A DNA stretch of 64,000 nucleotides from Janthinobacterium rivuli (lineage in GTDB: Bacteria > Pseudomonadota > Gammaproteobacteria > Burkholderiales > Burkholderiaceae_D). Of this stretch, positions 6,861 to 26,063 are shown piece by piece. The stretch is from positions 1,302,001 through 1,366,000 of the forward strand of contig NZ_CP121464.1 in the NCBI RefSeq assembly GCF_029690045.1. The letters are read 5' to 3'. A program made the translations under genes and the position numbers. The notes beneath the pieces are model-generated. The model saw only the letters and a program-made list of their open reading frames with translations. It made no database searches and had not been told where the DNA came from. Numbering within the stretch: position 1 is the stretch's first letter; every line of letters starts with the position of its first letter.

Positions 6861-6877
6861 GTAATGTAATACCCACA

Positions 6878-7037: not shown

Positions 7038-7191
7038 CTGGAAGAAGTAAAGATTATTTATTGATCGGTTTGCCGTAAAAAGCGAATCGATGGGTAATGA
7101 TTGTATGTATCAACAAACAAGCAACAACGTTGTACTTTCTTATCCCTGTAGCGCTCTTTTCGTTTGAAAGAATGAAGAGGCTAACGTTATA

Positions 7192-10068
<2,877 letters not shown>

Positions 10069-10204
10069 ATAACCTTAGCAGGTACAGAGGATAAGACGGT
10101 ACAACGTTGTGCGTTTGTTGATACTACCAGTCATTACCCCAATCTTTGCTTCTTCCAGATTCAGGCTTTGTCGCTCCATCGAGGACAAATGCCAGTACAA
10201 GTTA

Positions 10205-10320
10205 TGCCTGATGACCATAGCAAGTTGGTCCCACCCCTTCCCATCCCGAACAGGACCGTGAAACAACTTTGCGCCGATGATAGTGCTGCAACCAGTGTGA
10301 AAGTAGGTTATCGTCAGGCT
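10205..10320 (+). rRNA. rrf: 5S ribosomal RNA (operon 1)
   Basis: A 116-base 5S gene. The ends TGCCTGATGACC and GTTATCGTCAGGC(T) pair in helix I, and the loop segments CCCATCCCGAACAGG and GCGCCGATGATAGTG are typical. It is followed directly by the operon terminator. Confidence 0.95.
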
Positions 10321-10366: not shown

Positions 10367-10431
10367 ACGTCTGGTGGTTTTGTCTGGCGCTGTCGGATTA
10401 CACGTGCGGTGACACAAATACGTGTTGCAGC

Positions 10432-10448
10432 TGTTCCAAATTGATACA
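10432..10448. promoter_or_regulatory. 17-bp dyad, candidate activator site (pedF-like operon)
   Basis: TGTTCCA-AAT-TGATACA, an imperfect palindrome 31 bases upstream of the sigma-54 promoter. The same 7-3-7 element (TGTTCCA-GTC-TGGTACA) lies upstream of the aldehyde dehydrogenase promoter at 15251. Assignment to the AcoR-like activator encoded at 23.9-25.8 kb is my inference. Confidence 0.45.
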
Positions 10449-10477: not shown

Positions 10478-10493
10478 TGGCATGGCATTTGCT
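10478..10493 (+). promoter_or_regulatory. Sigma-54 (-24/-12) promoter of the cytochrome c550 operon
   Basis: TGGCATG-GCAT-TTGCT fits the RpoN consensus TGGCAYG-N4-TTGCW at every defined position, with GG and GC 12 bases apart. The expected start of transcription is near 10503, leaving a leader of roughly 28 bases before the ATG at 10531. Confidence 0.85.
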
Positions 10494-10530
10494 CTTCTTG
10501 GGTATTGACTAAAAAACCAAGGAGACCAGC

Positions 10531-11016
10531 ATGACCTATTCCATTCGTACCCTGCTCGGCGTTGCCGCCGCCGGCGCCGTTGCCCTCACTTCCCTGCTGA
10601 CCTTGCCGCATGCCTATGCGCACGGTAATGTCACGCCGCAAGGCGTCGACACCACCGGCTTGCCCAAGGTGGGCGACAAGTGGCTCGAACAAAACCCGTA
10701 TCGTGGCAACAAGCTGGCCTTGACTGTAGGCACCTCGGCCTACAACCAGAATTGCGCCCGCTGCCACGGCATCGAAGCCATCTCGGGCGGCATCGCGCCG
10801 GACTTGCGCCAGTTGGACCGCGATTGTTTTGGTATCAAGAATGAGACAAAGAAACAGGCTTGCTACAAGGAGACGGACAATTACTACCTGACCACCATCC
10901 GCCACGGTAAAGTGCGCAATGGCGCCGTGTACATGCCGCCGTTCGAAGGCGTATTTAATCAGGAAGCCATGTGGGCCATCAAGACCTATCTGGAAACCCG
11001 TAGAGAATCGAACTGA
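10531..11016 (+). CDS. pedF: Cytochrome c550, PedF type
   Basis: Periplasmic monohaem cytochrome c that takes electrons from the PQQ alcohol dehydrogenase. The 161-residue precursor has a signal peptide ending PHAYA (residue 30), one haem site CARCH (residues 75-79) and a probable axial Met in AVYMPPFEG (Met135). Two extra cysteines (99 and 111) flank a charged loop and may form a disulfide. The ATG at 10531 follows a strong AAGGAG. It is first in a two-gene unit with the solute-binding protein and has its own sigma-54 promoter. PedF/ExaB-type cytochromes accompany quinoprotein ethanol dehydrogenases in pseudomonads, which matches the dehydrogenase found 7 kb downstream. Confidence 0.9.
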   Translation: MTYSIRTLLGVAAAGAVALTSLLTLPHAYAHGNVTPQGVDTTGLPKVGDKWLEQNPYRGNKLALTVGTSAYNQNCARCHGIEAISGGIAPDLRQLDRDCFGIKNETKKQACYKETDNYYLTTIRHGKVRNGAVYMPPFEGVFNQEAMWAIKTYLETRRESN

Positions 11017-11031
11017 TCACGAAGGAGTCCC

Positions 11032-11865
11032 ATGCGTTCATTTCAATTCCGCGGCGCGCGCGCGATGATCTCGCTCGCTTGCCTGGCGCTGTGCGCAGCC
11101 GCGCCGGCGCGCGCCGACTGGCAGAAAGTGCAGCAGTCGGGCAGCCTGAAAGTGGCTGTGTACAACGAGTTCGCGCCGTTTTCCGACAAGGGGGCGGGCA
11201 TCGATATCGACATCGCCGAAGCGCTGGCGAAAAAGTTGGGCTTGAAACTGAGCTTGCTGCCATTTCCCGCCGGCGAAAACCTGAACGATGACTTGCGCAA
11301 TATGGTGTGGAAGGGGCATTACCTCGGTTATGGTCCTGCCGATGTGATGTTGCACGTGCCGGTCGACAAGAAGTTGATGGCGGATAACGACAAGGTCGAG
11401 ATCTTCGCGCCGTATTACGTGGAAACCGTGCGCCTGGCGCGTAGCGCGCAAGCCGTGCCGCAATTCGATGGCGTCGCTTCGCTGGCTGGCAAGCGCATCG
11501 GCGTGGAAAAGGTATCGATCGCCGCCATGCTGATGCTGGGCGAAGATAATGGCAAGTACCGCGACGATGTGCGCATCTTCGATACGGCGGCCGAAGCCTT
11601 GCAGCAATTGCAGGCGGGCAAGCTCGACGCCGTGCTGGCCAATCGTTCGGAAATCGAATCGGTGCTGAAAAGCGATCCCGCTTTCCCCTTGAGCGAAGTG
11701 GCGTTCGCCCGCTTGCCGCGCGCGGGCTGGGCCGTGGGCCTGGCCGTCAGCAAGCAACAACTCGACGTGGCCAGGTTGCTGCAAGAAGCCATGAACGAGA
11801 TGGCGGCCACCGGCGAATTGAAAACCATCTTTGAAAAGTATGGCGTGAAGGAAGCGCGGCCGTAA
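11032..11865 (+). CDS. Quinoprotein dehydrogenase-associated periplasmic solute-binding protein
   Basis: A 277-residue family 3 extracellular solute-binding protein with a signal peptide ending APARA. After it come the typical openings GSLKVAVYNEFAPFSDKGAGIDIDIAEALAKKLG (split over residues 40-75) and the C-terminal MNEMAATGELKTIFEKYG. Proteins of this type are found beside PQQ alcohol dehydrogenases (PedG- or MoxJ-like) without cognate ABC permease genes, as here, so a role in dehydrogenase maturation or cofactor handling is more likely than transport. It starts 15 bases after the cytochrome gene behind GAAGGAG, so the two are cotranscribed. The ligand is unknown. Confidence 0.85.
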   Translation: MRSFQFRGARAMISLACLALCAAAPARADWQKVQQSGSLKVAVYNEFAPFSDKGAGIDIDIAEALAKKLGLKLSLLPFPAGENLNDDLRNMVWKGHYLGYGPADVMLHVPVDKKLMADNDKVEIFAPYYVETVRLARSAQAVPQFDGVASLAGKRIGVEKVSIAAMLMLGEDNGKYRDDVRIFDTAAEALQQLQAGKLDAVLANRSEIESVLKSDPAFPLSEVAFARLPRAGWAVGLAVSKQQLDVARLLQEAMNEMAATGELKTIFEKYGVKEARP

Positions 11866-11882
11866 CAGTCCATGCTGTATGT

Positions 11883-11918
11883 GAAGCCCGCACATCGGAA
11901 GATGTACGGGCTTTTTGT
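11883..11918. terminator. Bidirectional terminator between convergent genes
   Basis: Hairpin AAGCCCG-(C)ACATC / GATGT(A)-CGGGCTT with a T run on the plus strand. It lies between the solute-binding protein gene and the converging TonB receptor gene. Confidence 0.85.
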
Positions 11919-11919
11919 T

Positions 11920-14073
11920 TTAGAAACTATATTGGGCGCTGACACCCAGCAGCCAGTTGCGGCCAGGCGCCGCTTCATAGTAGCGCTTGTTGCTGTCGCC
12001 GACGATGACGGAGCCCACGTAGGTCTTGTCGAAAAGATTGTTCAGGCGGGCAAATTCCTTGAAGCGCCAATTCCCCACGTTTTGTTTGGCGTTGAAGCGC
12101 GCATTGAACACCGTATAGCCGGGCGCCGGTTTTTCGATGTTGCTGTCTTCCGCGTAGACCTGGTTGCTGGCCACGCTTTCCAGCGCCGCGCCAAAACGGT
12201 CGAGCGTGTCTTTCCAGGCCAGTTCCGCGAACAGATTGGCGCTGGGCACGCCCGGCAAGCGGCTGCCTTCGCGCACGCTGCCAAACGCCTGGTCATACAC
12301 GGCGTGCAGGCTGGTGAGGGCTACTTTTGTCGTGAAGCCATATGGCAAGTTCGAGTCCAGCGACACTTCCATACCCTGACGCAAGGTTTTACCTGCATTG
12401 CGATAGCTGGTGCGCCCGCCGCTGGACTTGTCGACCACCAGCTCGTCGTTGGTCTTGATCTGGAACACGGCCGCGTTTACGTGGGTGTTGTTGGCGATTC
12501 TGGCCTTGATGCCCGCTTCCAGGTTGGTGCTGGTGGCTGGTTTCAGCTGGTAATTGAAGCCGCCGCCCGTGCCCGAGTAAAACAGTTCATTCAAGGTAGG
12601 TGCCTCAAAACCGCGCGCGGCGCTGGCGTAGACGTTGACGTTCGGCGTCAGTTTATACAGCAGACCCAGCACCGGTGTCGTGTGGCTGAACTCCAGGCTG
12701 CCGCTGTCGTTGCCATTGCTGAGATAGTGGTCGTCGACCGCCACTTTCATCTTGCTGTAGCGCAAACCTGCGCTGAGCAGCCATGGGCCGCTTTGCCATT
12801 CCGCCTGGATATAGGGATCGAGGCTGGAGACGACATTTTGCTCGTCGCGGCGCAGCTTGCCTTTTACGCCAAACGTGTTGCCGATGTAATTTTCATAACC
12901 CGTGCGGTCGTCGCTGGAGCGGCCGTAATCGATGCCGATGGTGGTGCTCAGCTTGCCGCCTGCCAGCTGGTTCACGTGCAGCCAGTTGGTGTCGATGCCG
13001 TAGAACTCACGCTGGAAGTCGACCACGCCGCCTGAATGTGTGAGTATTCCATTAATAGTTTGATTTTGTAGGAACTTGGAGAAGGCCTGATATTGGATCA
13101 CCTCGCGGTTGCCGCCATACACCATTACATGCAGGCGGTCGTCGCCGAACGACTGTTCATAGGTGGCGCCGATTTGCTGGTGGTCGATACTCTTGCGCGT
13201 GTTGTAGCGCTCGGCCAGGGTGCGCTTCGGGTTCTGCGTGTCGCTCGCATCGGTTTCTCCGGCGCGCGGGTCGCGGGCAAACGTGGCCCAGGTGGCGCCC
13301 AGCGGATCTTGTGTGTTGCCCTGATGCAGGCTGTTGGCGACGATGGTCAGCTTGCTGTCCGCCGTCGGCTTGACGGTGATCTTGCCGAACGCCTGTTCGC
13401 GCGTGGCGGCGCTGTGGTCGCGGAAACCATCGGTGCGGAAGCGCGAGCCGTCGAGCACGTAGCCGATGCCGCCGGCCTGGCCTTGCGCCGTCAAGTCCAC
13501 CTTGTTGGTGCCATAGCTGCCGCCCGTCACATTCAATTCGACGGACGGGGGATTTTGTCCATCCTTGGAAAACAGCTGGATCACGCCGCCCGAATGGTTG
13601 CCGTAGATGGCAGAAAACGGTCCACGCAGTACTTCGATGCGCTCGGCCGTGTCGAGGTTGAAGGTGGCGGCCTGGCCCTGGCCGTCCGGCATGCTGGCGG
13701 GAATGCCATCGCTGATCAGTTTGACGCCCCGCACGCCGAAAGCCGAGCGGGCGCCGAAGCCGCGCGACGAGATCTGCAAGTCTTGCGCATAGTTCTGACG
13801 ATTTTGCACGACCAGGCCCGGCACGGCGGCCAGCGCTTCCGACGCGTTGACGCGGATTTGGCCATCCTGGATACGGGCGCTGTCGACGACGTCGATCGAG
13901 GCCGGCACTTCCTGGCTGGGGTGGGCGATGCGGCTGCCGCTGACGACCACCGTATCCATCAGTTGCCCGTTGGCCAGGTCAGCTGCCTCGGCGGCAAAGA
14001 CGTGGGGGGCGAGGGTGGCGCTACCAGCGACAAACAGGCTGGCGATGGTGTTCAGGCGGAAACGATGCTGCAT
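11920..14073 (-). CDS. TonB-dependent outer-membrane receptor of the alcohol dehydrogenase cluster
   Basis: A 717-residue TonB-dependent receptor with signal peptide MQHRFRLNTIASLFVAGSAT..FA, TonB box-like DTVVVSGSR (about residues 39-47), a plug with SSRGFGARSAFGVRGVKL and RIEVLRGPFSAIYGNHSGGVIQLF, and a barrel ending in an aromatic residue (SAQYSF). I chose the ATG at 14073 because GGAGA precedes it at good spacing; a longer frame begins at 14160 but would start inside the promoter. The gene sits in the middle of the quinoprotein cluster and has its own sigma-54-like promoter, so it is probably co-regulated with alcohol oxidation. The ligand cannot be read from sequence; a lanthanide chelate or a PQQ-related compound are candidates by context, a ferric siderophore the default alternative. 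Confidence 0.88.
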   Translation of the reverse strand: MQHRFRLNTIASLFVAGSATLAPHVFAAEAADLANGQLMDTVVVSGSRIAHPSQEVPASIDVVDSARIQDGQIRVNASEALAAVPGLVVQNRQNYAQDLQISSRGFGARSAFGVRGVKLISDGIPASMPDGQGQAATFNLDTAERIEVLRGPFSAIYGNHSGGVIQLFSKDGQNPPSVELNVTGGSYGTNKVDLTAQGQAGGIGYVLDGSRFRTDGFRDHSAATREQAFGKITVKPTADSKLTIVANSLHQGNTQDPLGATWATFARDPRAGETDASDTQNPKRTLAERYNTRKSIDHQQIGATYEQSFGDDRLHVMVYGGNREVIQYQAFSKFLQNQTINGILTHSGGVVDFQREFYGIDTNWLHVNQLAGGKLSTTIGIDYGRSSDDRTGYENYIGNTFGVKGKLRRDEQNVVSSLDPYIQAEWQSGPWLLSAGLRYSKMKVAVDDHYLSNGNDSGSLEFSHTTPVLGLLYKLTPNVNVYASAARGFEAPTLNELFYSGTGGGFNYQLKPATSTNLEAGIKARIANNTHVNAAVFQIKTNDELVVDKSSGGRTSYRNAGKTLRQGMEVSLDSNLPYGFTTKVALTSLHAVYDQAFGSVREGSRLPGVPSANLFAELAWKDTLDRFGAALESVASNQVYAEDSNIEKPAPGYTVFNARFNAKQNVGNWRFKEFARLNNLFDKTYVGSVIVGDSNKRYYEAAPGRNWLLGVSAQYSF

Positions 14074-14143
14074 GCGGATTCTCCAATGTGAATAAAAGCC
14101 TGCTTTGGTCGCGTGCGCGGCGCAGGTCTGCATAGTTGTATCA

Positions 14144-14159
14144 AGCAATATGCCTGCCA
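14144..14159 (-). promoter_or_regulatory. Sigma-54-like promoter of the TonB receptor gene
   Basis: On the minus strand TGGCAGG-CATA-TTGCT, one mismatch to the RpoN consensus, with the invariant GG and GC correctly 12 bases apart. It is 71 bases upstream of the receptor ATG. Confidence 0.65.
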
Positions 14160-14196
14160 TGTCTCCATTGGTGGGCTGAAATTATACGCGTGTCAG

Positions 14197-14212
14197 TGGC
14201 ACGGCGTTTGCA
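14197..14212 (+). promoter_or_regulatory. Sigma-54 promoter of the beta-propeller gene
   Basis: TGGCACG-GCGT-TTGCA, a full match to the RpoN consensus, 67 bases before the ATG at 14279. It is divergent from the TonB receptor promoter about 40 bases away, so both may share activator sites. Confidence 0.85.
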
Positions 14213-14278
14213 TGCAGCAATGTTCAGATGCGCCGATGCCGCGCGCTTTTCCTGTGTTTTGCCATTGAAAAGGTGATT

Positions 14279-15235
14279 ATGCCCAACTTCTTCCTGCGCT
14301 TGCGCCAAGTTTTCTGGCTGTTGCCGGCGCTCGCCAGCACCGCCGTCCAGGCCGTCCCCTTTGCCTATGTTCCCAATGAAAAATCGGGCACCCTGAGCGT
14401 GATCGATACGGCCACCGATCAGGTCGTGCGCCAGATCGCCGCGGGCAAGCGTCCGCGCGGCATTGCCGCCAACCCCAGCGGGCGGCAATTGTTTGTCACG
14501 GACGCGGCCAGCAGCGCCTTGCTGCTGATCGATAACGCTGGCGGCGCGCCCGTGCGCACGGTGGCGCTGGGCAAGTCGCCGGAAGGTGTCAGCGCTTCGC
14601 AAGATGGTAGCCACGTGGCCGTGGCCGTCGAGGAAAACAATAGCGTGGCCTTGCTCGACGGGCATACAGGCAGCTTGCTTGCCGATATCAAGGTGCACGG
14701 ACGTAACCCGGAACATGCCGTGTTCAGCCCCGATGGGCGCTGGCTGCTGGTCAGCGCGGAAGAGGCCGAGCAAGTCGACGTCATTGATGTGGCACAACGC
14801 CGCCAGGTCGCGTCCATTGCCGTGGGACTGCGTCCGCGCGGCATCGGCTTCAGTCCGGACTCGGGCCGTGCCTACGTGGCGTGCGAACTGGTCAATGCCG
14901 TCTACGTCATCGACATGGCCGCGCGCAAGGCTATTGCCACCATTCCCGCTGGCAAGAATGCGAATGGCATCGTGGTCCATCCCGGCGGCAAGCAGGTGTA
15001 TGTCTCGAACGGTATCGACGGCACGGTGATGGTGATCGACACGGCCAGCAACAAGGTGACGGCCACCATTCCCGTCGGCAAGCGCCCGTGGAATATGGCC
15101 ATCACGCCCGATGGCGCCAAGCTGTACGTGGCCAATGGCCGCTCGAACAGCGTTTCCGTCATCGACACGGCCAGCGCGCGCAAGGTGGCCGATATTGCCG
15201 TGGGCGAATTGCCATGGGGCGTGGTGATTCGCTAG
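14279..15235 (+). CDS. PQQ-dependent catabolism-associated beta-propeller protein (YVTN repeats)
   Basis: A 318-residue exported protein with a signal peptide ending STAVQA, followed by about seven repeats of the YVTN type. They recur as AYVPNEKSGTLSVIDTAT, VYVSNGIDGTVMVIDTAS and LYVANGRSNSVSVIDTAS, each with a G(K/L)RPxG/PWN turn. This repeat family is regularly encoded next to quinoprotein alcohol dehydrogenases; the molecular role is not established and binding of PQQ or of the dehydrogenase is only a suggestion. The ATG at 14279 (after AAAAGGTG) gives a proper signal peptide. It is monocistronic behind its own sigma-54 promoter. Confidence 0.87.
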   Translation: MPNFFLRLRQVFWLLPALASTAVQAVPFAYVPNEKSGTLSVIDTATDQVVRQIAAGKRPRGIAANPSGRQLFVTDAASSALLLIDNAGGAPVRTVALGKSPEGVSASQDGSHVAVAVEENNSVALLDGHTGSLLADIKVHGRNPEHAVFSPDGRWLLVSAEEAEQVDVIDVAQRRQVASIAVGLRPRGIGFSPDSGRAYVACELVNAVYVIDMAARKAIATIPAGKNANGIVVHPGGKQVYVSNGIDGTVMVIDTASNKVTATIPVGKRPWNMAITPDGAKLYVANGRSNSVSVIDTASARKVADIAVGELPWGVVIR

Positions 15236-15250
15236 TGGCACAGGCGCAGG

Positions 15251-15267
15251 TGTTCCAGTCTGGTACA
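15251..15267. promoter_or_regulatory. 17-bp dyad, candidate activator site (aldehyde dehydrogenase operon)
   Basis: TGTTCCA-GTC-TGGTACA, a near-perfect palindrome, followed at 15270 by another TGTTCCA half site. It lies about 117 bases upstream of the -24 element, the usual distance for an enhancer-binding protein. It matches the dyad at 10432 in architecture and sequence. Confidence 0.55.
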
Positions 15268-15383
15268 CCTGTTCCATTGTGCAGCGGCTCAAGCCCGGGC
15301 ATGCGCTGAAAAGCGCGCCGGTATTGATGCCGCGCCCTTGCAACAAGAGTAAAACCGGCTAAGTTTGTAGTGGGATGGCGAGC

Positions 15384-15398
15384 TGGCACGGCATTTGC
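15384..15398 (+). promoter_or_regulatory. Sigma-54 promoter of the aldehyde/alcohol dehydrogenase operon
   Basis: TGGCACG-GCAT-TTGC fits the core RpoN consensus and lies 88 bases before the aldehyde dehydrogenase ATG. Downstream genes up to 19246 follow with short gaps, so the PQQ dehydrogenase is probably transcribed from here. Confidence 0.88.
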
Positions 15399-15486
15399 GG
15401 AAGACTCCGTGTACTCACCCCATCTGTACCAGGACGTTTGATTTTAATTAAGTAATTCCATTCTAATTAACCCGATAGAGGACGAC

Positions 15487-17007
15487 ATGAATCTCGCAGA
15501 CATCAGCAAACTGGGCGTAGCCAATCCCTTCAAACAACGCTATGACAATTACATCGGCGGCAAATTCGTTGCCCCAGTAAAAGGTGAATACTTTCCTAAC
15601 ATCACGCCGATCACCGGCTTGCCGTTTTGCGAAATCGCCCGCTCCACGGCCGAGGACGTCGATCTGGCCTTGGACGCCGCGCATGCCGCCAAGGATGCCT
15701 GGGGCAAGACCTCGCCTGCCGAGCGCGCCAATATCCTGAACCGCATCGCCGACCGCATCGAGCAGAACTTGAGCCTGATCGCCACGGCGGAAACCATTGA
15801 CAACGGCAAGCCGATCCGCGAAACGATGAATGCCGACATTCCGCTGGCCATCGACCATTTCCGTTATTTTGCCGGCTGCATCCGCGCGCAGGAAGGTTCC
15901 GTCGCGCAAATCGATGCGGAAACCTATGCCTACCACTACCACGAGCCGCTCGGTGTCGTGGGTCAGATCATTCCATGGAATTTCCCGATTCTGATGGCCG
16001 TGTGGAAACTGGCGCCAGCCCTGGCCGCCGGCAATTGCGTGGTACTCAAGCCGGCCGAGCAGACCCCAGCGTCCATCATGGTGTTGATCGAGCTGATCGG
16101 CGACTTGCTGCCACCGGGCGTGCTGAACATCATCAACGGTTTCGGCCTGGAAGCGGGCAAGCCGCTGGCCTCGAGCAAGCGCATCGCCAAGATCGCCTTT
16201 ACGGGCGAAACGGGCACGGGCCGCTTGATCATGGGGTACGCGGCGCAAAACCTGATTCCCGTCACCCTGGAGCTGGGCGGCAAGTCGCCGAACATCTTCT
16301 TTGAAGACGTGATGGATGCTGACGATGACTATTTCGACAAATGCCTCGAAGGCTTCACCATGTTTGCGCTGAACCAGGGCGAAGTGTGCACCTGCCCGTC
16401 GCGCGTGCTGATTCAGGAATCGATCTACGAGAAATTCATCGAACGGGCCCTGAAGCGCGTGGCGGCCATCAAGCAGGGCAACCCGCTTGACTCGTCCACC
16501 ATGATCGGTGCGCAGGCGTCGCAGGAGCAGCTGGAAAAAATCTTGTCCTACCTCGACATCGGCCGTCAGGAAGGCGCGGAAGTGCTGGCCGGCGGCGAGC
16601 GCAACACGCAGGCGGGTGACCTGGAAGGCGGCTATTACGTGCGTCCGACCGTGTTCAAGGGCAACAACAAGATGCGCATCTTCCAGGAAGAAATCTTCGG
16701 CCCCGTCGTGTCCGTGACCACCTTCAAGGATGAGGCCGAAGCGCTGGCGATTGCCAACGACACCTTGTATGGCCTCGGTGCCGGCTTGTGGACGCGTGAC
16801 GGTTCGCGCGCCTTCCGCATGGGACGCGCCATCCAGGCGGGTCGCGTGTGGACCAATTGCTACCACCTGTATCCAGCTCACGCCGCGTTCGGCGGTTACA
16901 AGCAATCGGGTATCGGCCGCGAAAACCACAAGATGATGCTCGATCACTACCAGCAAACGAAGAACTTGCTGGTGAGCTATAGCCCGAAAGCGCTGGGCTT
17001 CTTCTAA
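15487..17007 (+). CDS. exaC: NAD-dependent aldehyde dehydrogenase, ExaC type
   Basis: Oxidises the aldehyde made by the quinoprotein alcohol dehydrogenase to the acid, in the cytoplasm. The 506-residue protein shows the ALDH blocks IIPWNFP near residue 161, the cofactor-binding FTGETGTGR near 240 (NAD specificity likely), the general-base [11 protein letters not shown] near 261 and the nucleophile in [11 protein letters not shown] near 302. It ends [15 protein letters not shown], typical of the acetaldehyde dehydrogenase ExaC/AldA group. GAGGAC precedes the ATG. It is first in the operon with DUF779 and the PQQ dehydrogenase. Confidence 0.92.
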
Positions 17008-17061
17008 ACCGGTACACGCGCCGCGCTTGTAGTCCGGGCGCGGCGCGCAGAAAGGGATGCC

Positions 17062-17451
17062 ATGAGTGCAGCAATTGCCCGGGTGGTCGCCACCGATGCG
17101 GCGCTGGAAATGATGGAAAAATTGCGCCAGCGTCACGGCCCGCTGATGTTTTTCCAGTCGGGCGGCTGCTGCGACGGCAGTACGCCCATGTGCTACGCGC
17201 TGGGCGAGTTCGATGTCAGCGACACCGACATCTATCTCGGCAATTTGAATGGCACACCGTTTTACATGGGACTCGAGCAATTCGAGTACTGGGAGCATAC
17301 CCAGTTGATTATTGATGTGGTCGATGGCAATGGCGGCATGTTTTCACTCGACAACGGTACGGGCAAGCGCTTTTTGACGCGCTCGCGCCTGTTCACCGAT
17401 GAAGAGTGCGCGCTGTTGCATGCCCAGCCGCATGAGCACCGCAAGACTTGA
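17062..17451 (+). CDS. DUF779 family protein
   Basis: A 129-residue soluble protein of the DUF779 family, recognisable by [16 protein letters not shown] (residues about 30-45) and the [15 protein letters not shown] stretch. The family often sits beside aldehyde dehydrogenases of the ExaC type, as here, but its function is not established. The clustered cysteines (CC and C) near the N-terminus suggest metal or redox chemistry; that is inference. It is the middle gene of a three-gene operon, 54 bases after the aldehyde dehydrogenase and 34 bases before the alcohol dehydrogenase, with AAAGGGA before its ATG. Confidence 0.85.
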
Positions 17452-17485
17452 TACACACATACTAATAAAACAGAGGGAGATGATT

Positions 17486-19246
17486 GTGCAGAAAAAAATC
17501 ATGGGGATCGTCGTCGGTTTGGGATTGGCATCCTTGGCCTCATTGGTCCAGGCGGCCGACGTGGGCAATGTCACGAATGCCATGCTCGACAGCACGGCGA
17601 AGAATCCGGCCAGCGTGCTGTCGTTTGGCATGGGCACGCAGGGCCAGCGTTATTCGCCGTTGACGCAAATCAATGACAAGACCGTGGCCAGGCTGGTGCC
17701 GGCCTGGTCGTTCTCGTTTGGCGGCGAAAAGCAGCGTGGCCAGGAATCGCAGCCGCTGATTCATAACGGCAAGATGTTCGTCACGGCATCGTATTCGCGC
17801 ATCTTTGCCGTCGACTTGAAAACGGGCGCCAAGCTGTGGAAATATGAGCATCGCTTGCCGGACGGCATCATGCCCTGCTGCGACGTGGTCAACCGCGGCG
17901 CCGCCCTGTATGGCAACCTGGTGATTTTCGGCACGCTCGACGCCTACCTGGTGGCGCTGGACCAGAACACGGGCAAGATCGTCTGGAAGGAGAAAGTCGA
18001 CGATTATGCGGCAGGCTACTCGATGACGGCCGCGCCGCTGATCGCCGAAGGCTTGCTGCTGACGGGCGTGTCGGGCGGGGAATTTGGCATCGTCGGCAGG
18101 GTCGAAGCGCGCAACCCGATGACGGGCGACCTCGTGTGGACTCGTCCAACGGTAGAGGGGCACATGGGCCACCGCTACGACAAGGATGGCAAGGCCATCG
18201 ATAACGGCATTTCGGGAACGGTGAACAAGACCTGGCCGGGCGACCTGTGGAAAACGGGCGGCGCCTCGACGTGGATGGGCGGCACCTACGATCCGCAAAC
18301 CAAGCTCGCGTATTTCGGCACGGGCAACCCGGCGCCGTGGAACAGCCACTTGCGTCCCGGCGACAACCTTTACTCTTCCTCCACCGTGGCGCTGGACGTG
18401 AAAACGGGCCAGATCAAATGGGCGTATCAAAACACGCCGAACGATGCCTGGGATTTCGATGGCGCCAACGAGTTCGTCACCTTCGACATGGATGGCAAGC
18501 GCTACGGCGGCAAGGCCGACCGCAACGGTTTCTTTTATGTGATCGACGCCAGCACGGGCAAGCTGCAGAACGCCTTTCCGTTTGTGAAGAAAATCACCTG
18601 GGCCAGCAGCATCGACCTGAAGACGGGCCGGCCAAACTACATCGCCGCCGGCCGTCCTGGCGACCCGACCAAGGGAGAGGAGGGCAAGAAGGGCACGACC
18701 GTGTTTGCCGCGCCCGCTTTCCTCGGCGCCAAAAACCAGATGCCGATGGCGTACTCGCCGCAAACCAAGCTGTTCTATGTGCCGGCGAACGAATGGGGCA
18801 TGGATATCTGGAACGAGCCGATCAGCTACAAGAAGGGCGGCGCTTTCCTCGGTGCCGGTTTCACCATCAAGCCCTTGTTTGACGACTACATCGGCGCCAT
18901 GCGCGCCGTCGATCCAAAGACGGGCAAGATCGTCTGGGAAATCAAGAACAACGCGCCGCTGTGGGGCGGTGTGATGAGCACGGCCGGCAACCTGGTGTTC
19001 TACGGCACGCCGGAAGGTTTCCTGAAAGCCGTCGACGCGAAGACGGGCAAGGAGCTGTGGAAATTCCAGACGGGCTCCGGCGTCGTGGCGCCGCCCGTCA
19101 CCTGGCAGGATGGCGACACGCAATATGTAGCCGTCGTTTCCGGCTGGGGTGGCGCGGTGCCGCTGTGGGGCGGCGAAGTGGCGAAGAAGGTCAACTTCCT
19201 GGAGCAGGGCGGTTCCGTGTGGGTTTTCAAGCTGGCATCGAAGTAA
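17486..19246 (+). CDS. pedH: PQQ-dependent alcohol dehydrogenase, lanthanide type (PedH/ExaF-like)
   Basis: Periplasmic quinoprotein that oxidises primary alcohols and passes electrons to cytochrome c550. It is an eight-bladed propeller of 586 residues with signal peptide ending LVQA, adjacent cysteines Cys131-Cys132 (MPCCDV) that form the disulfide next to PQQ, and W-motifs such as [14 protein letters not shown]. The catalytic Asp323 lies in AWDFDGANE and is followed two positions later by Asp325. That extra Asp marks lanthanide-binding enzymes (XoxF, ExaF, PedH), whereas calcium enzymes have Ala, Ser or Thr there. I prefer the GTG at 17486, seven bases after GAGGGA; an ATG at 17480 would lie too close to it. 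No PQQ synthesis genes are in the window. Confidence 0.92.
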
Positions 19247-19309
19247 CGGGGTGAAGCATCCGGGCCACTCGGATGGGTGTCTCCCTGTCCGCCGGGTGTT
19301 TTCTTTTTG

Positions 19310-19336
19310 CTGACGGTCCAGGCCGTCAGTTTTTTG
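19310..19336 (+). terminator. Terminator after the PQQ dehydrogenase gene
   Basis: CTGACGG-TCCAGG-CCGTCAG followed by six T. It separates the dehydrogenase operon from the porin promoter. Confidence 0.85.
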
Positions 19337-19454
19337 TTTACCTGTATGCCCGATACGCCTGCTTGCGGTCAAAAAATGAACACTGTCAGTGGCGATTGAT
19401 CCGCCGCTGCACACCTTAAATACGCTTTTTCTCTTTCTCCCTCTGAGCCGTGCT

Positions 19455-19469
19455 GGGCACGCTTATTGC
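19455..19469 (+). promoter_or_regulatory. Sigma-54-like promoter of the porin-nosR-apbE operon
   Basis: GGGCACG-CTTA-TTGC matches the RpoN consensus with one mismatch (the first T), and the GG/GC spacing is correct. It lies 65 bases before the porin ATG. Confidence 0.75.
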
Positions 19470-19533
19470 CAAAGCTTGAGGTACATCAATCACTGGTGTG
19501 CACACTAAAAACAGAGAAGAAAGAGGAGAAGCA

Positions 19534-20694
19534 ATGAACACATGGATCAAGCTGGGGAGCCTGGGTGTCATGACAATCGCAACGGTGGGACAGGCGCAAG
19601 CCGTCGATATCAAGGCTGGCGACTGGACCGTGTCGGTGGGCGGCATCGTCAACGCCTATTACACGCAAGTGTCGTGTTCGGGCGATGCGGTGGGCGGGCT
19701 GGCGCTGGGCGGCCAGGCGCTCGGTTGCGGCGGAGAGAAGGACCGCACCACCATCGGCAATGGCTTGCTGCCGAACGGCTTGATCACCTCGGCCTCATCG
19801 CGGCTGGGCGAGTACGACGTGAAAGCCTTGATCGGCATCTACAACTCGACGGCCACGGACAGCGCCATCAGCCAGAACAGCGTGGTCGACGTGCGCCAGG
19901 CCTTCTTTACGTTTGGCAATGAACACATGGGCACCTTCAAGCTGGGCCGCGACTATGGCATCTTCGGCGCAAATGCGATTTTGTCCGACATGACCTTGTT
20001 GGGCTCGGGCGCACCGGTGCAGGCGACGCAGCGGGGCCGGGTGACCCTGGGCCATATCGGCGCCGGCTACACGTATCTGGGCAACTATGGCCAGATCATG
20101 TACAGCTCGCCGAAGTCGGGCGGCGTTGGCGTCGACGTGGCGCTGGTCAGTCCCGTCTCCGATACGCCCATCGTGGCAGGCTCGACCTATTCCTCGAAGT
20201 CGAGTCCGCAAGTGCAGGCGCAGCTGACGTATGCGCAGGAAGGCTTGAAGGCGTGGCTGGGCGTGAAGTCGCAAAAATTCACGTCGAAAACGCCAGGTGT
20301 TGATGACCTGACCATGCGCGGCGTGGAAGTGGGCGGCTCGTACCAGATGGGGCCGGCTGGCGTGCTGCTCAACTTCCAGGGCGGCAAAGGATTGGGGATT
20401 CTCTCCGATGCGGACCAGGGCGATACCAAGTCGAAGAACTGGCTGCTGCAAGGCACGTATAAAACGACGGACAAGCTGAAGCTGGGCTTGTCCTATGGCA
20501 TCAGCAAGAACGACGACAACACGGCCGGCACGGGCGGCTTGAAGTCGAACGCCAACCTGACCCTGGGCGCGTACTACTCGCTCAACAGCGCGATCACCCT
20601 GGTGGGCGAGCTGGGCCAGACGCGCTCGAAAGGCTTTACGGGCGGCGAGGCAAAGATGAATGGCGTGTCCTTGGGCGGCATTATTTTCTTCTAA
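19534..20694 (+). CDS. Outer-membrane porin of the alcohol oxidation cluster
   Basis: A 386-residue betaproteobacterial-type general porin. It has a signal peptide ending GQAQA, an opening strand VSVGGIVNAYYTQV, a DVRQAFFTFGNEHMGTFKLGRDYGI segment typical of the loop-3 approach in Gram-negative porins, and a C-terminal strand ending GVSLGGIIFF with a terminal Phe. The ATG at 19534 follows AGAGGAG; an upstream ATG at 19498 has no ribosome site. Its position behind a sigma-54 promoter and before nosR/apbE suggests it admits alcohol substrates or small solutes for this pathway, which is inference. Confidence 0.88.
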   Translation: MNTWIKLGSLGVMTIATVGQAQAVDIKAGDWTVSVGGIVNAYYTQVSCSGDAVGGLALGGQALGCGGEKDRTTIGNGLLPNGLITSASSRLGEYDVKALIGIYNSTATDSAISQNSVVDVRQAFFTFGNEHMGTFKLGRDYGIFGANAILSDMTLLGSGAPVQATQRGRVTLGHIGAGYTYLGNYGQIMYSSPKSGGVGVDVALVSPVSDTPIVAGSTYSSKSSPQVQAQLTYAQEGLKAWLGVKSQKFTSKTPGVDDLTMRGVEVGGSYQMGPAGVLLNFQGGKGLGILSDADQGDTKSKNWLLQGTYKTTDKLKLGLSYGISKNDDNTAGTGGLKSNANLTLGAYYSLNSAITLVGELGQTRSKGFTGGEAKMNGVSLGGIIFF

Positions 20695-20742: not shown

Positions 20743-22854
20743 ATGCGGATAATGCGCTTGTTCATAGCCTGCTGGCTATTTCTGTTTATCCTGGGACAGG
20801 CTTGGGCCGGTGTGCTGACCAAAGCCGAACTGGCGCGGCGCTTTCCTGCGCCCATCGTCATCGGCGACAAGGAGAGCGATTTTCCCGTCTGGCCCTTGTT
20901 CCGGCAAAACGCCACGGCGACAGAGCTGGCCGGCTACGTTTTCGAATCGGTGGACCTGTCGCCGATTCCCGGCTTTTCCGGCGTGCCCGTCAATCTGCTG
21001 ATCGCCATCGATCCGAAAGGCAGTTTTCTCGCCGTCGCCGTGCTGTCGCAGCACGAACCCGTGTTTCTCGACGGTCTAGGTGAAGCGCCGTTGTTCCAGT
21101 TCGTCAAACAGTACCAGGGCTTGTCGCTGAAACAGAATATCGCCATCGATGCGCGCACCAAGCGCGCGCCAGATGCGACCCATGCCGATATCGATGGCGT
21201 GTCGAAGGCCACGGCCTCCGTGCGCATCATCAACCAAAGCGTGCTCGCGTCGGCATTGAAAGTGTCGCGGAAAAAACTGGGTTTCGCGCAAGGCCGCGAC
21301 CCGGACCAGATCGCCCGCATCCGCATGGAGGTATTCGAAAAACGCAGCGTGACGCAGATGCTCGCACAGGGCTTGATCCAGCATGTGCGTTTGAGCAACA
21401 AGGAGGTAGAGACTTTGTTTGCCGGCAGTCCCGGAGCGGGACTCGATGTGGAAGCGACGCGCGAACCGGACGGCGTGTTCATCGACCTGTACCTGGCGTA
21501 TGTATCCGTGCCCAGCGTGGGACGCAATCTGTTGACGGAACGCAGCTGGAACAAATTGCGCAACCGCTTGGAGGAGGGCGACCACGCCATCCTCATCATG
21601 TCGCGCGGGCGCTACAGCGTGCTGGGCGACGATTTCGTGCGCGGAACAGTCCCGGACAGGCTGTTACTGAAGCAAGATGGCTTGCCCATCGACATGCGCG
21701 ACCTGGACCTGGAATTGAGCTTGTCCGATACGGCTACGTTGCCGACGGAAAATGTCGCCGTGTTTCGGATCATCAGCCAGGCGGGGCTCGATGCGGCCAG
21801 TCCGCTGGCGTTCACGCTACCGATCACGCGCAGCAAGGGCATCGTGTATCCGGAGCGCATCGCTCGCAACGTCGATTTCAACTACCGTTTGCCGGCCGAA
21901 TTCTATACTGCGCCGCAAGGCGACGATGCCACGTGGCGCGGCACGTGGAAAAACCGCAAGGCTGAGTTGCTGTTCTTGGCCGCCGGGCTGGCGCTGCTGG
22001 CCGGCGCATTGACATGGCAGAAACGCCTGGTGCGCGACGGGCGGCAATTTGCCTGGTTCCGCCGTCTGTTCCTGTTGTTTACCATCGGCTTCATCGGCTA
22101 TTACGCGCAGGGGCAGTTATCGATTGTCAATATCACGGGTGTCATCCAGGCGCTGCTGGCGGGGCGCAGCCTGAGCTTTTTTCTGTTCGATCCGATGACG
22201 GTGATCCTGTGGGCGTTCGTGCTGCTCAGTCTGTTTATCTGGGGGCGCGGCACGTTTTGCGGCTGGCTGTGTCCGTTTGGCGCGCTGCAGGAATTCACGG
22301 GCAAGCTGGGCCAGTGGTTGCGCTTGCCTCAGTGGAAGATCAAGCCGCGTCTCGATGGCCGCTTGAAATGGATCAAGTATGGCTTGCTGGCGGCCATACT
22401 TGGCAGCAGCCTGTTTTCCAGCCAGATCACGGACAAGCTGGTCGAGCTGGAGCCGTTCAAGACGGCCATTACCCTGAACTTCGTGCGCGCCTGGCCGTTC
22501 GTCGCGTATGCCGTGGGCTTGCTGCTGCTCAGCAGTGTTTCCTACAAATTCTTTTGCCGCTACCTGTGCCCGTTTGGCGCGGCGCTGGCGCTGCTGGGGC
22601 GGTTTCGCGTGTTCAACTGGATTCCGCGTCGCAAGGAGTGCGGCACACCGTGCCAGACGTGTCGCCACCGCTGCGAACATCACGCCATCGCGCCGAGCGG
22701 GAAAGTCGATTACGGCGAATGTTTCCAGTGTATGGATTGCGTGGTGATTTACGCCAGCGATGAAAAATGCGCCCCCTTGATGCTGGAAATCAAGCGTGCC
22801 CGCACCATTCCCATTGTCCGGGCCACGGCAGAGGAGAGCAGCAATGCAGCGTAG
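20743..22854 (+). CDS. NosR-like FMN-binding and iron-sulfur membrane protein
   Basis: A 703-residue protein with the domain order of NosR. It has a signal sequence (ending AWA), a periplasmic FMN-binding domain with the flavin-attachment motif DGVSKATAS (Thr157 as acceptor), about five membrane segments starting near residue 407, and a polyferredoxin-like C-terminus. Cysteine motifs are CGWLCP (506/510), CRYLCP (605/609), CGTPCQTCRHRC (633-644) and CFQCMDC with a distant fourth Cys (660-677), as in NosR itself. No nitrous oxide reductase genes are near. The ApbE gene overlaps its 3' end. An electron-transfer role for the quinoprotein system, or for metal/PQQ maturation, is my inference. Confidence 0.88.
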   Translation: MRIMRLFIACWLFLFILGQAWAGVLTKAELARRFPAPIVIGDKESDFPVWPLFRQNATATELAGYVFESVDLSPIPGFSGVPVNLLIAIDPKGSFLAVAVLSQHEPVFLDGLGEAPLFQFVKQYQGLSLKQNIAIDARTKRAPDATHADIDGVSKATASVRIINQSVLASALKVSRKKLGFAQGRDPDQIARIRMEVFEKRSVTQMLAQGLIQHVRLSNKEVETLFAGSPGAGLDVEATREPDGVFIDLYLAYVSVPSVGRNLLTERSWNKLRNRLEEGDHAILIMSRGRYSVLGDDFVRGTVPDRLLLKQDGLPIDMRDLDLELSLSDTATLPTENVAVFRIISQAGLDAASPLAFTLPITRSKGIVYPERIARNVDFNYRLPAEFYTAPQGDDATWRGTWKNRKAELLFLAAGLALLAGALTWQKRLVRDGRQFAWFRRLFLLFTIGFIGYYAQGQLSIVNITGVIQALLAGRSLSFFLFDPMTVILWAFVLLSLFIWGRGTFCGWLCPFGALQEFTGKLGQWLRLPQWKIKPRLDGRLKWIKYGLLAAILGSSLFSSQITDKLVELEPFKTAITLNFVRAWPFVAYAVGLLLLSSVSYKFFCRYLCPFGAALALLGRFRVFNWIPRRKECGTPCQTCRHRCEHHAIAPSGKVDYGECFQCMDCVVIYASDEKCAPLMLEIKRARTIPIVRATAEESSNAA

Positions 22855-23854
22855 AACGTTTATTTCCGCAGCGATCGGCAGCGTGGCCGGCATGGCGGGC
22901 GTTATTTTGCCTGGCAGCATGGCGCGCGGTACGGCCACGGCGTCTGGCGTGCGGCCTTATCAAGGCGCCGCGCTGGCGTTTGGCACGACGATCGCCGTCA
23001 CCGTGTTGCACCACGATCAGCGCCAGGCGGAACTGGCCATCGAGGATGCCTTGCATGCGGCCAGGAATATCGACCGCCTGATGAGTATTTACAGCCCGAG
23101 CAGCCAAGTCTTCCGGCTGAACCGTGACGGCCGCCTGGCCCGGCCTGACGTCCATTTGCTGGCGGTGCTGGCGCAGGCGCAAGCCTTGTCGCAATGGAGC
23201 GATGGGGCATTTGATATCACCGTGCAACCTTTATGGCAGCTGTTTCGCGCGGCGGCAGACCAGGCAAGCTTGCCGACGGACACATTGCGTCGCGCAGCGC
23301 AGGCGCGGGTCGGCTGGCGGCAACTGGCGTGGGATAGCCGCGAAGTGCGTTTTTTTCAGCCCGGCATGGCGCTGACCTTGAATGGCCTGGCGCAAGGCTA
23401 CGCGGCGGACATGGCGCTGGCCGCCGTGCAGGCGCGCGGCATACGGCACGCCTTGCTGGACACGGGCGAATTCGTTGCGCGCGGGCAGCGTTCCGTGCGC
23501 CGTCCCTGGACCCTGGGCATCCAGGATCCGCGTGACGCAGAAATACTCGCGGCCACCTTGAAAGTGGAAGGGCGCAGCGTGGCCACGTCGGGCGATTACG
23601 AGTGTACGTTCACGCCCGACTTCGTGCATCACCACATCTTCGATCCATCGAAGGGGGATTCGCCGCGCGAATTGGCCAGCGTGACCGTGCTGGCACCCAC
23701 GGGTTTGCTGGCCGATGGCTTGTCGACGACCTTCATGGTAACGGGTGCGGCGCGCGCGCATGCGATGGCCGCGCAAATGGAAGGCGTTGACCTGATGAGC
23801 ATCGACAAGCAGGGCCGGCGCGAGATGTCGCCCGGCTTTTCCCTTCTAATGTAG
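22844..23854 (+). CDS. apbE: FAD:protein FMN transferase (ApbE family)
   Basis: Attaches FMN covalently to a threonine of exported flavoproteins; the obvious client is the NosR-like protein encoded just upstream. The 336-residue product begins MQRRTFISAA, a twin-arginine-like signal, and shows FGTTIAVTV, the FDITVQPLW segment, ALTLNGLAQGYAAD and the C-terminal HHIFDPSKGDSPRELASVTV region with LLADGLSTTFMV, the usual ApbE blocks. The GG(D/N) turn appears as LLDTGEF here, a small deviation. The ATG at 22844 overlaps the nosR-like stop by 11 bases, showing translational coupling. Confidence 0.9.
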   Translation: MQRRTFISAAIGSVAGMAGVILPGSMARGTATASGVRPYQGAALAFGTTIAVTVLHHDQRQAELAIEDALHAARNIDRLMSIYSPSSQVFRLNRDGRLARPDVHLLAVLAQAQALSQWSDGAFDITVQPLWQLFRAAADQASLPTDTLRRAAQARVGWRQLAWDSREVRFFQPGMALTLNGLAQGYAADMALAAVQARGIRHALLDTGEFVARGQRSVRRPWTLGIQDPRDAEILAATLKVEGRSVATSGDYECTFTPDFVHHHIFDPSKGDSPRELASVTVLAPTGLLADGLSTTFMVTGAARAHAMAAQMEGVDLMSIDKQGRREMSPGFSLLM

Positions 23855-23855
23855 G

Positions 23856-25844
23856 CTATTTCAGATGCGGCACCTTGCGATAGATCGTGTTGCGGGACAC
23901 GCCCAGGGCCCGCGCCGTGGCCGAGACGTTGCCACCGTGGGCATCGAGCGATTTGAGAATGACGCTTTGCTCCATTTCTTCCAGGTTGGCGCCGGCCGCG
24001 ATCATGCGGTCCGTGCTGGCGCTGGCGGCAGTCGCTTGCGTCATCTCAATATCGTCGAGGAAATCATCGGGCATGTGGCGCAGACAGATTTCATGCTCGT
24101 CGCCCGCCATGACGATGGCCGTGCGCAACAGATTCGTCAACTGGCGGAAATTGCCCGGCCATTTATGCTGGTGGAACATGCGCAGAATATCCGGCGCCAC
24201 CGTGTAGCGCGTGTCGGGCGCTTCCGTTGCGAGGATTTTTTTTACGACCGTGTCCAGGTCCGTGCGTTCGCGCAGCGGCGGCAGTTTTACCACCAGGCCA
24301 TTCAGGCGGTAATACAAATCTTCGCGGAACAGTCCTTTGGCCATGCGTTCGCGCAAGTTGTGATTCGTGGCACAAATGAGTTCCACATTGACGGTGATCG
24401 ATTTGCTGCTGCCCAGCGGGGTGACCATGCGTTCCTGCAACACGCGCAACAGCCGTGCCTGCAAGCCAAACGGCATGTCGCCGATTTCATCGAGGAACAG
24501 GGTGCCGCCATTGGCTTGCAAGATCTTGCCGATGGCGCCTTTCTTGCGCGCACCCGTAAACGCCCCGTCCTCATAGCCGAACAGTTCGGACTCGATCAGG
24601 GTTTCCGGAATCGAGGCGCAATTGACGGCAATGAACGGTCCCATGGCCCGTGGCGAATCGTTGTGGATGGCTTGCGCCAGCAATTCCTTGCCGGTGCCCG
24701 TTTCTCCCATGACGAGGATGGGGATGTCGCGCCCCAATACTTTGTTGACCTTTTCGATCACCAGTTCCAGCTGCGGATCGCCCGTGCGCAGATAGCGCAG
24801 GCCGGACAGGCGGCGCGCCGCGTTGGCCGCATGGCTGGCCGGCGCGGGAACCTGGGCCGATGCGGCATTGATATCGCTCTGGTCGGTGCTGGCAGCAAAG
24901 CCGTGCTGGAAGACGCTATTGGACAGGCGCAACTGCGCGCGCCCATACACGCGCACGCCGCTGTGCATGCACAGGTTCAGCAAGCCGGGCGAGGCAGTGC
25001 GGTAATGGTCGTACAGGGCGGACACGGGCAAGCCGAACAGGGAACTGAATGTGTGCGATTGCAGCGCGGCAAATGACAGGCCCAGTTGGAACAGGCCATT
25101 CTTGTTGGCGGATAAAAACCGTCCACCCGGCGTGAACGAGGCGATGCCTTCCATCAAGGTGCCGATGAATTCGGGGCGCGCGTGGAAGTGCACGGTGATG
25201 GCATCTTCGAAGGTGGCGGAAAACAGCTGGTTCTCGATCATCAGCGCCGACATGCGCACGAGGGCCATCGTATGCTTGTGGAAACTACGCTGGTCGCTCG
25301 AGACGTCCAGCACGCCGATGACGTTGCCCCGGTGGTCGGTGATCGGTGCGGCGGAGCAGGTCAGGAAATGATTGGCGGCCAGGTAATGCTGGTCCGCATG
25401 GACCAGGGTCGGTACTTTTTCCGTGATGGCCGTGCCGATGGCATTCGTGCCGCGGCTTTGTTCCGACCATGCCACGCCCGGTTGCAAAGCGACCCGGTTG
25501 GCTTTTTCCAGAAAATCATCGTCACCCAGTGAATGCACGATGACGCCGTTGGCATCCGTCAAGATCACCATATTGTGGGTGTTGACGATTTGCTGGTACA
25601 GGGTTTCCATGGCGGGCAGCGCGTGCGTGTGCAGCAAGCGGTTTTGCTCGATCAGCAAGGACAGGTCGGATTTGCCGGCCGGCGTAAAGTCGGGCGTGGC
25701 CGTGGGCGACAGGCCAAAGGCGACGGAGCGCTGATGGGAAGTTTCAATGATGACGGGGACGTTGTCCTGTCCTGCCGGCAAAATGTTCGCGTCCGCGATG
25801 GACGAAAACGGTGCGCTACGGTAAGTAGCTGACGGTTGATACAT
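23856..25844 (-). CDS. Sigma-54-dependent transcriptional activator, AcoR family
   Basis: A 662-residue enhancer-binding protein. The N-terminal third holds a GAF-type sensor ([38 protein letters not shown]). The centre is an AAA+ domain with Walker A GETGTGKE (residues 380-387) and the sigma-54 contact loop GAFTGA (427-432). The C-terminus is a Fis-type HTH ([21 protein letters not shown]). The ATG at 25844 has GGAGG upstream; a longer frame to 25916 lacks this. It converges on apbE with 1 base between stops. It is the only regulator in a cluster with five sigma-54 promoters, so it very likely drives them, probably sensing an alcohol or its oxidation product. No acetoin genes are present. 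Confidence 0.93.
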
Positions 25845-26063
25845 GATCTCGTTGCCTCCGTTGGGCCCTGTACCGGGCGCTCTTTTGAATATCGAGAGTG
25901 TTCCATAATGTAGCACCTGTCACAGATGGGAGCAAAGCAAAGCGAACCGGGCTATCCCCAGTGTTGCTGCCAGGCCCAGAGTTGCTCCCATCAGTGGACA
26001 GTGCATAGGGCTGTATAAGCAAGTGTGGTGCCAGGGCCGTTTCGCAGGACGGAAAAATAGCGC
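25845..26063. other. Intergenic region between activator gene and rrn promoter 2
   Basis: About 220 bases containing the divergent 5' region of the activator gene. Apart from the GGAGG before its start codon I see no clear promoter or operator here, and no -24/-12 element, so the activator itself does not appear to be sigma-54-dependent. Confidence 0.5.

Follow-up and report, generated by a model that had tools for sequence, protein, structure and literature searches.

A putative sigma-54 alcohol-oxidation regulon in Janthinobacterium rivuli that includes import of its own cofactor

A cluster of alcohol-oxidation genes in Janthinobacterium rivuli raises the question of what switches its several transcription units on together, and what belongs to the set. 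The window analyzed here is a stretch of 64,000 nucleotides (C1:1302001-1366000) of the complete genome, which consists of one contig of 6,325,785 bases. Its cluster encodes an alcohol dehydrogenase (adh) dependent on pyrroloquinoline quinone (PQQ), the cytochrome PedF, the aldehyde dehydrogenase ExaC, a beta-propeller protein, a TonB-dependent receptor and an AcoR-like activator (Table 1). An initial annotation, made from the letters alone, had proposed that five sigma-54 promoters unite these genes in one regulon. The conservation described below strongly supports a sigma-54 regulon at the level of sequence. We further propose, with a probability of roughly three in four, that this alcohol-oxidation regulon includes import of its own cofactor through the receptor, designated PqqU. 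The PQQ-import content is the most interesting, and previously unreported, part of the regulon.

All five reported -24/-12 elements are present, with the GG/GC spacing and orientation expected of sigma-54 promoters, 37 to 87 bases 5′ of predicted start codons. Their match to TGGCAYG-N4-TTGCW had been given as complete in three cases and with one mismatch in two; a recount gives two elements with no mismatch, two with one and one with two. The window holds 10 matches at up to one mismatch, against 2.2 expected, a number reached in 0 of 100 shuffles. Genome-wide, the exact pattern occurs 10 times and its reversed control twice; at up to one mismatch the figures are 181 and 85. Measured against the genome-wide rate, the 9-kb span discussed in the initial annotation contains two exact matches where 0.014 are expected (Poisson P 1e-4) and four at up to one mismatch where 0.26 are expected (P 1.5e-4), values that serve as a guide only, the pattern having been chosen by the earlier reader. 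Two further matches in the window (5063-5078 and 26404-26419, minus strand, one mismatch) each lie immediately 5′ of a 16S gene, on the strand opposite to it, and are probably accidental, duplicated with the ribosomal RNA (rRNA) operon; the remaining ones at up to one mismatch are at 38314, 48605 and 61628. A search for sites resembling those of integration host factor (13-base consensus, up to one mismatch) gave nothing useful. Elsewhere in the genome, an exact sigma-54 site (L001, 300646, minus) is found 3′ of a frame resembling a sigma-54 response regulator and also precedes a transporter-like frame on the same strand, both labels being a reading of the translation.

For comparison with relatives, 40 regions around acoR orthologs were fetched from the same genus and GTDB family, the cluster genes were located by tblastn, and the best site was sought within about 320 bases upstream. 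The window is included in the counts, and the controls for promoter-site and palindrome counts are mononucleotide shuffles. At up to one mismatch, a site was found at pedF in 31 of 32 rows and at exaC in 26 of 30 (30 of 30 at up to two mismatches). The corresponding figures are 15 of 20 for pqqU, where L060, L063, L064, L082 and L089 lack it, and 14 of 19 for the propeller gene, where the rows without it are L067, L077 (two mismatches), L082, L088 and L089. The porin site was present in 13 of 13 rows at up to two mismatches (shuffles 3.8%) and in 1 of 13 at up to one. For acoR the figure is 15 of 42 rows at up to one mismatch, and this site occurs only in loci arranged like the window or nearly so. 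Shuffled upstream regions gave 0-0.4% at up to one mismatch and 2.0-4.3% at up to two. The operon-internal genes for the substrate-binding protein (sbp) and the DUF779 protein had no site even at up to two mismatches (0/28 and 0/29). Rearranged loci, in which a gene is separated from its usual operon or follows a gap, provide a natural experiment: here adh (7 of 27 rows) and nosR (5 of 20) have a site of their own at up to one mismatch.

Alignment of the pqqU-propeller gap from 22 loci, which represent 21 genomes (L061 and L145 being from the same one), shows its long conserved blocks to be the two divergent promoters; a TCTCC run 5′ of the pqqU start is also uniform. Upstream of the porin element, a block of the form TGATCCG...GCACA (19370-19420) is conserved in most of 17 aligned loci, and is possibly the site of another regulator.

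By its sequence the TonB-dependent receptor is of the PqqU type, a class of PQQ importers, which the initial annotation had overlooked. Its best NCBIfam hit by far is the narrow PqqU equivalog NF041535 (641 bits, below the cut-off of 1200), and among solved structures it is closest to those of E. coli YncD and the PQQ transporter PqqU, at 509 and 507 bits, with the next at 51. The ten PQQ-contact positions map onto Q98, F113, K295, R324, Q328, Q330, R391, N496, Y500 and R555. Nine of these are identical, and the tenth is a change from Tyr99 to Phe that is accepted by the published PqqU signature, Tyr/Phe/Trp99, Arg304 and Arg365 in E. coli numbering (PMC12124388). The window receptor carries the signature as F113, R324 and R391. 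All 113 distinct receptor sequences examined fit it, even three from the clusters of G071, G075 and G097 with 38-41% identity.

The promoter of the receptor gene tends to be present where the enzyme is linked and absent where it is not. Receptor loci were taken from the best 80 matches of a public-genome scan (Janthinobacterium, Duganella, Rugamonas, Massilia and Pseudoduganella, then Zoogloea, Aromatoleum and others) and from further genome regions. The 117 receptor rows gave 100 distinct promoters, 10 duplicates and 7 rows with less than 200 bases upstream having been dropped. A dehydrogenase was counted as linked at 38% identity or more; L109, L157, L161 and L166 rest on distant enzymes (40-41%). 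Where a PQQ alcohol dehydrogenase is in the locus, the receptor has a site at up to two mismatches in 43 of 45 cases, and in the two exceptions (L060 and L123) it lies behind other genes on its strand. Where no such enzyme is in the locus, the count is 10 of 55. These ten include L121 and L122, counted as having a site though the sequence is the palindrome described below, and L099, L100, L158 and L171, with less than 4 kb of upstream sequence; for L101 (G050) the orthologous dehydrogenase is some 14 kb off, beyond the region examined.

The same tally was made per genome for the 40 genomes with a clade-A receptor (at least 60% identity). A site was found in 14 of 14 genomes with an orthologous dehydrogenase and a receptor promoter that could be read, and in 2 of 16 (G112 and G129) with no dehydrogenase match at E 1e-100. 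Among five genomes with a distant match only, G127, G143, G166 and one of the two G093 receptors have a site, and G141 has none. G009 and four genomes unread for the pqqU promoter (G059, G104, G115 and G130) complete the 40.

The linked enzyme is assigned to the lanthanide type (PedH/ExaF) by a second Asp two residues after the catalytic Asp. Its motif reads DFD, as in PedH (6zcw), where ExaA (1flg) has DFS, and its nearest solved structures are those of PedH (829-831 bits), followed by ExaA (675 bits). DxD is present in 61 of 61 distinct orthologs at 70% identity or more; DFS, as in the calcium-type ExaA, occurs in five distinct sequences at 48-60% (L060, L249, L250, L251 and L252). In L060, L249, L250 and L251 the DFS enzyme carries its own exact sigma-54 site, so that the enzyme type has changed and the promoter type has stayed. 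The same four loci, from genomes of the genus, show an alternative arrangement, in which one strand carries the gene of the DFS-type dehydrogenase (51-53%, tblastn), pqqU and a second gene for a cytochrome, with sigma-54 sites before the first cytochrome gene and the dehydrogenase.

No pqqC match, and no pqqE over its cut-off, was found in the complete genome, in which pqqA, pqqB and pqqD were not searched. The genome nevertheless encodes four quinoproteins over cut-off, one of the methanol/ethanol type and three membrane PQQ dehydrogenases, so its PQQ probably comes from outside. Of the 40 genus genomes, 24 carry a dehydrogenase at least 97% identical, none of them with pqqC; four divergent genomes (81-89%) all have pqqC, and four with a 55-57% dehydrogenase do not. 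Eight have no dehydrogenase match, and one of these has pqqC. A wider family sample (145 genomes searched) gave an orthologous dehydrogenase in 41, of which 15 lack pqqC. Clade-A PqqU is present in 11 of these 15, against 4 of the 26 with pqqC (Fisher P 4.6e-4, for a sample that is not independent, 7 of the 15 being from one genus). The other four have more distant forms: linked ones at 38-40% in G075 and G097, a truncated one at 48% next to adh in G095, and one at 41% in G123 that is located on a different contig. A simple rule by which PqqU replaces PQQ synthesis is only partly true, since G022 and G031 have both pqqC and a linked PqqU.

The activator at the end of the cluster has a GAF domain (PF01590), an AAA+ domain (PF00158) with GAFTGA in the translation, and a Fis-type helix-turn-helix (HTH) domain (PF02954). 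It is over the cut-off of none of the 25 NCBIfam families shown, of 27, and no acetoin genes are among the scanned cluster genes; for these reasons it is named only AcoR-like, and not AcoR proper, the acetoin regulator. A candidate activator site is the 16-base palindrome TGGNACANNTGTNCCA, fully matched at 15261, where its centre lies 115 bases 5′ of the exaC -24 element. It was found at 28 of 72 distinct exaC promoters at up to one mismatch (shuffles 0) and at 41 of 58 distinct pedF promoters at up to two (shuffles about 0.5%). The imperfect copy in the acoR leader resembles a sequence between the divergent acoR and pedF genes in other genera.

The palindrome also led outside the cluster. Full matches occur at two places in the genome, 744062 and 15261 of the window; another 19 places have a single mismatch, many of them attributable to chance because a reversed control has 9. 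One of the 19, at 955741, lies 61 bases upstream of an exact sigma-54 site (955664, minus), and 3′ of this are genes for a histidine kinase and a LuxR/NarL-type response regulator. The nearest NCBIfam models of the pair are UhpB/NarX and GacA/NarL, all below cut-off, and the regulator was not named ErdR, for which it scored 60 bits against a cut-off of 390. The kinase was sought in a sample of eight genus genomes. Both the sigma-54 site and the palindrome are conserved in all seven (the window's own included) that have it; the eighth, G009, gave no match to the kinase and has no orthologous dehydrogenase. A distant relative of the pair (40-42%) stands beside a PQQ alcohol dehydrogenase in G130. 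It is likely, judging from these conserved sites, that the AcoR-like protein is the activator for exaC, pedF and the kinase operon, and the LuxR-type two-component operon is probably a further target of the same switch. The initial annotation had contrasted the wiring with that of pseudomonads, which use LuxR-type regulators. The contrast is only half right: the genome also has a LuxR-type operon with the same promoter type and palindrome.

We hypothesize that the N-terminal domain of the AcoR-like activator detects an alcohol or aldehyde, and that the protein binds the TGGNACANNTGTNCCA palindromes, as their conservation suggests. It would then open RNA polymerase with sigma-54 at the promoters of pedF, exaC-DUF779-adh, pqqU, the propeller gene, porin-nosR-apbE and acoR itself. 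An inducing alcohol would thus jointly switch on the lanthanide-type dehydrogenase, the cytochrome, the aldehyde dehydrogenase and the outer-membrane PQQ receptor. Because the enzymes and the PQQ importer share a promoter type, the cell probably collects the cofactor when alcohol is available.

A broader interpretation, toward which the balance tips slightly, is substrate-induced cofactor scavenging in PQQ-auxotrophic Janthinobacterium and its relatives. One alcohol-sensing sigma-54 activator would command both a rare-earth dehydrogenase and the importer, PQQ import would hold the place that synthesis has in the Pseudomonas regulon, the activator would also stand above a LuxR-type system, and the importer promoter would come and go with the enzyme.

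Several observations weigh against the proposed regulon. The main gap is the missing palindromes: within the window none was found at up to three mismatches near the pqqU, propeller or porin promoters. In relatives, at up to two mismatches, the palindrome occurs at 4 of 52 pqqU promoters (shuffles 0.6%) and 3 of 36 porin promoters (0.8%), and at 0 of 43 propeller promoters and 0 of 16 regions upstream of the acoR -24 element; shuffles for pqqU, porin and propeller range over 0.6-0.9%. One palindrome common to all promoters was therefore rejected, and control of pqqU, the propeller gene and the porin operon by the activator is inferred from linkage. The claim of one sigma-54 regulon gains from promoter conservation and the natural rearrangements, while its extension to one common activator has a candidate site at two of the five promoters. 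The porin element itself has two mismatches, and in L065 nosR resembles a first gene, yet has only a distant two-mismatch match. PqqU would also serve beyond the regulon, since the three membrane PQQ dehydrogenases need PQQ and have no sigma-54 site in the 400 bases upstream (best 3-4 mismatches). Finally, the wiring is independent of the loss of PQQ synthesis, because the sister genomes G022 and G031 have pqqC and still keep a linked pqqU of the sigma-54 type; as they hold both, the import wiring seems to us to predate the loss of synthesis.

The alternative that survives best, though we consider it unlikely, accepts the sigma-54 promoters as real and has pqqU, the propeller gene and the porin operon opened by another activator, or by a LuxR-type regulator with sigma-54, the AcoR-like protein driving only exaC, pedF, itself and the two-component operon. 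A LuxR-type regulator working with sigma-54 has a precedent in exaA of Azospirillum (PMC6115532). The alternative agrees with the distribution of the palindrome, which is frequent at the exaC, pedF and kinase promoters alone and takes a weak form in the acoR leader, and with the separate conserved block that precedes the porin element. Enhancers can, however, work from about 1 kb, and the palindrome at 15261 is 1.07 kb from the propeller promoter. The pqqU promoter, moreover, is retained or lost with the linked enzyme, and BmoR activated its promoter without its hairpin site (PMC8899819).

Much less probable is that the TonB receptor imports a lanthanide chelate, like LutH, and not PQQ. The linked enzyme is of the lanthanide type, and the specificity of TonB receptors is hard to infer from overall similarity (PMC12124388), but the receptor is closest by a wide margin to the YncD/PqqU structures and keeps the ten PQQ-contact positions, and it is present as well in genomes that lack a dehydrogenase match at E 1e-100; a lanthanophore receptor was rejected in favor of PqqU on the contact residues. 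A chance origin of the sites in a genome rich in GC, where the reversed control implies a sizeable background, is ruled out for practical purposes by their position, orientation and conservation across genera, their absence before operon-internal genes, and the rearrangements.

A sigma-54 regulon that takes in PQQ import bears on how bacteria obtain this cofactor. PqqU is widespread, mostly in bacteria unable to make PQQ, and in several related genera its promoter is now seen to be linked to a single enzyme that uses PQQ. It becomes testable whether bacteria take up PQQ, as a public good, only when they need it, and whether their growth on ethanol depends on PQQ-making neighbors and rare-earth metals.

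As for the surroundings, the presence of a NosR-like/ApbE pair in an alcohol cluster invites the guess that it has a role in electron transfer from the dehydrogenase. The alcohol cluster is flanked by two co-oriented rRNA operons (5104-10319 and 26445-31604), and recombination between them could delete the island. In many relatives the contig that carries the cluster is about 15-26 kb long, a length that would fit an assembly broken at the rRNA copies, and, as given above, the dehydrogenase match is absent in 8 of 40 genus genomes. A cobalamin riboswitch lies at 1941-2182 on the minus strand.

Table 1. Genes, promoter elements and candidate activator sites of the cluster, in window coordinates. 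Mismatches of -24/-12 elements are to TGGCAYG-N4-TTGCW.
Feature	Coordinates	Strand	Details
Candidate activator site, pedF	10423..10438	+	TGTTGCAGCTGTTCCA, 2 mismatches to TGGNACANNTGTNCCA; centre 47 bp 5′ of -24 element
-24/-12 element of pedF-sbp	10478..10493	+	TGGCATGGCATTTGCT, 0 mismatches
Cytochrome c-550 PedF	10531..11016	+	TIGR04494 199 bits, cut-off 122
Periplasmic substrate-binding protein (sbp)	11032..11865	+	weak match to quinoprotein-associated TIGR03871, 34 bits, cut-off 212
PqqU-type TonB-dependent PQQ receptor	11920..14076	-	best family NF041535; PQQ-contact residues
-24/-12 element of pqqU	14144..14159	-	TGGCAGGCATATTGCT, 1 mismatch
-24/-12 element of propeller gene	14197..14212	+	TGGCACGGCGTTTGCA, 0 mismatches
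YVTN beta-propeller protein, PQQ-catabolism-associated type	14279..15235	+	TIGR02276 over cut-off; TIGR03866 220 bits, cut-off 287
Candidate activator sites, exaC	15242..15276	+	15261-15276 TGGTACACCTGTTCCA, full fit; 15242-15257, 2 mismatches
-24/-12 element of exaC-DUF779-adh	15384..15399	+	TGGCACGGCATTTGCG, 1 mismatch
Acetaldehyde dehydrogenase ExaC	15487..17007	+	NF050026 951 bits, over equivalog cut-off 900
DUF779 protein	17062..17451	+	PF05610
PQQ alcohol dehydrogenase (adh), PedH-like	17486..19246	+	DxD motif at residues 323-325
-24/-12 element of porin-nosR-apbE	19455..19470	+	GGGCACGCTTATTGCC, 2 mismatches
Porin-like protein	19534..20694	+	label of the initial annotation; no Pfam/NCBIfam match at E 0.001
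NosR-like FMN (flavin mononucleotide)/4Fe-4S membrane protein	20743..22854	+	NF046105 597 bits, cut-off 1000; PF12801, PF04205
ApbE family flavin transferase	22796..23854	+	PF02424 220 bits
AcoR-like sigma-54 activator	23856..25916	-	GAF, AAA+ with GAFTGA, Fis HTH; start uncertain, 25844 alternative
Imperfect candidate activator site, acoR leader	25909..25924	-	3 mismatches
-24/-12 element of acoR	26018..26033	-	TGGCACCACACTTGCT, 1 mismatch; sixth site, absent from the initial annotation

Several known systems resemble this regulon in part. AcoR of Ralstonia eutropha is a sigma-54 activator grouped with BmoR as responding to alcohols or acetoin. BmoR of Thauera butanivorans is an alcohol-responsive sigma-54 activator with an upstream inverted repeat (PMC8899819); it controls an alkane monooxygenase. 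E. coli PqqU (YncD) is a high-affinity PQQ receptor, and 23% of its owners have PQQ synthesis genes (PMC12124388). In the main text of that paper the word "sigma" is absent, and its abstract and the sections consulted describe no link of PqqU to an alcohol regulon; our search of the literature on PqqU/YncD found no paper on control of PQQ import by sigma-54 or an alcohol regulator.

In Azospirillum the PQQ alcohol dehydrogenase gene exaA is likewise transcribed with sigma-54, and a LuxR-type regulator is involved (PMC6115532). Unlike in Azospirillum, an AcoR-like activator here adjoins the cluster, and several units share the promoter type, including the gene for the PQQ receptor. The gene content resembles that of the Pseudomonas ped/exa clusters (AgmR, PedS2/PedR2), with a PedH-type enzyme and a PedF cytochrome (PMC12997753); PqqU goes unmentioned in this review. 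There, too, enzyme and cofactor supply answer to one regulator, as the LuxR-type AgmR switches on the ped genes together with a separate pqq synthesis operon (PMC12997753). Pseudomonas thus uses LuxR-type regulators and supplies the cofactor through a pqq synthesis operon, whereas the Janthinobacterium cluster has sigma-54 promoters and PQQ import.

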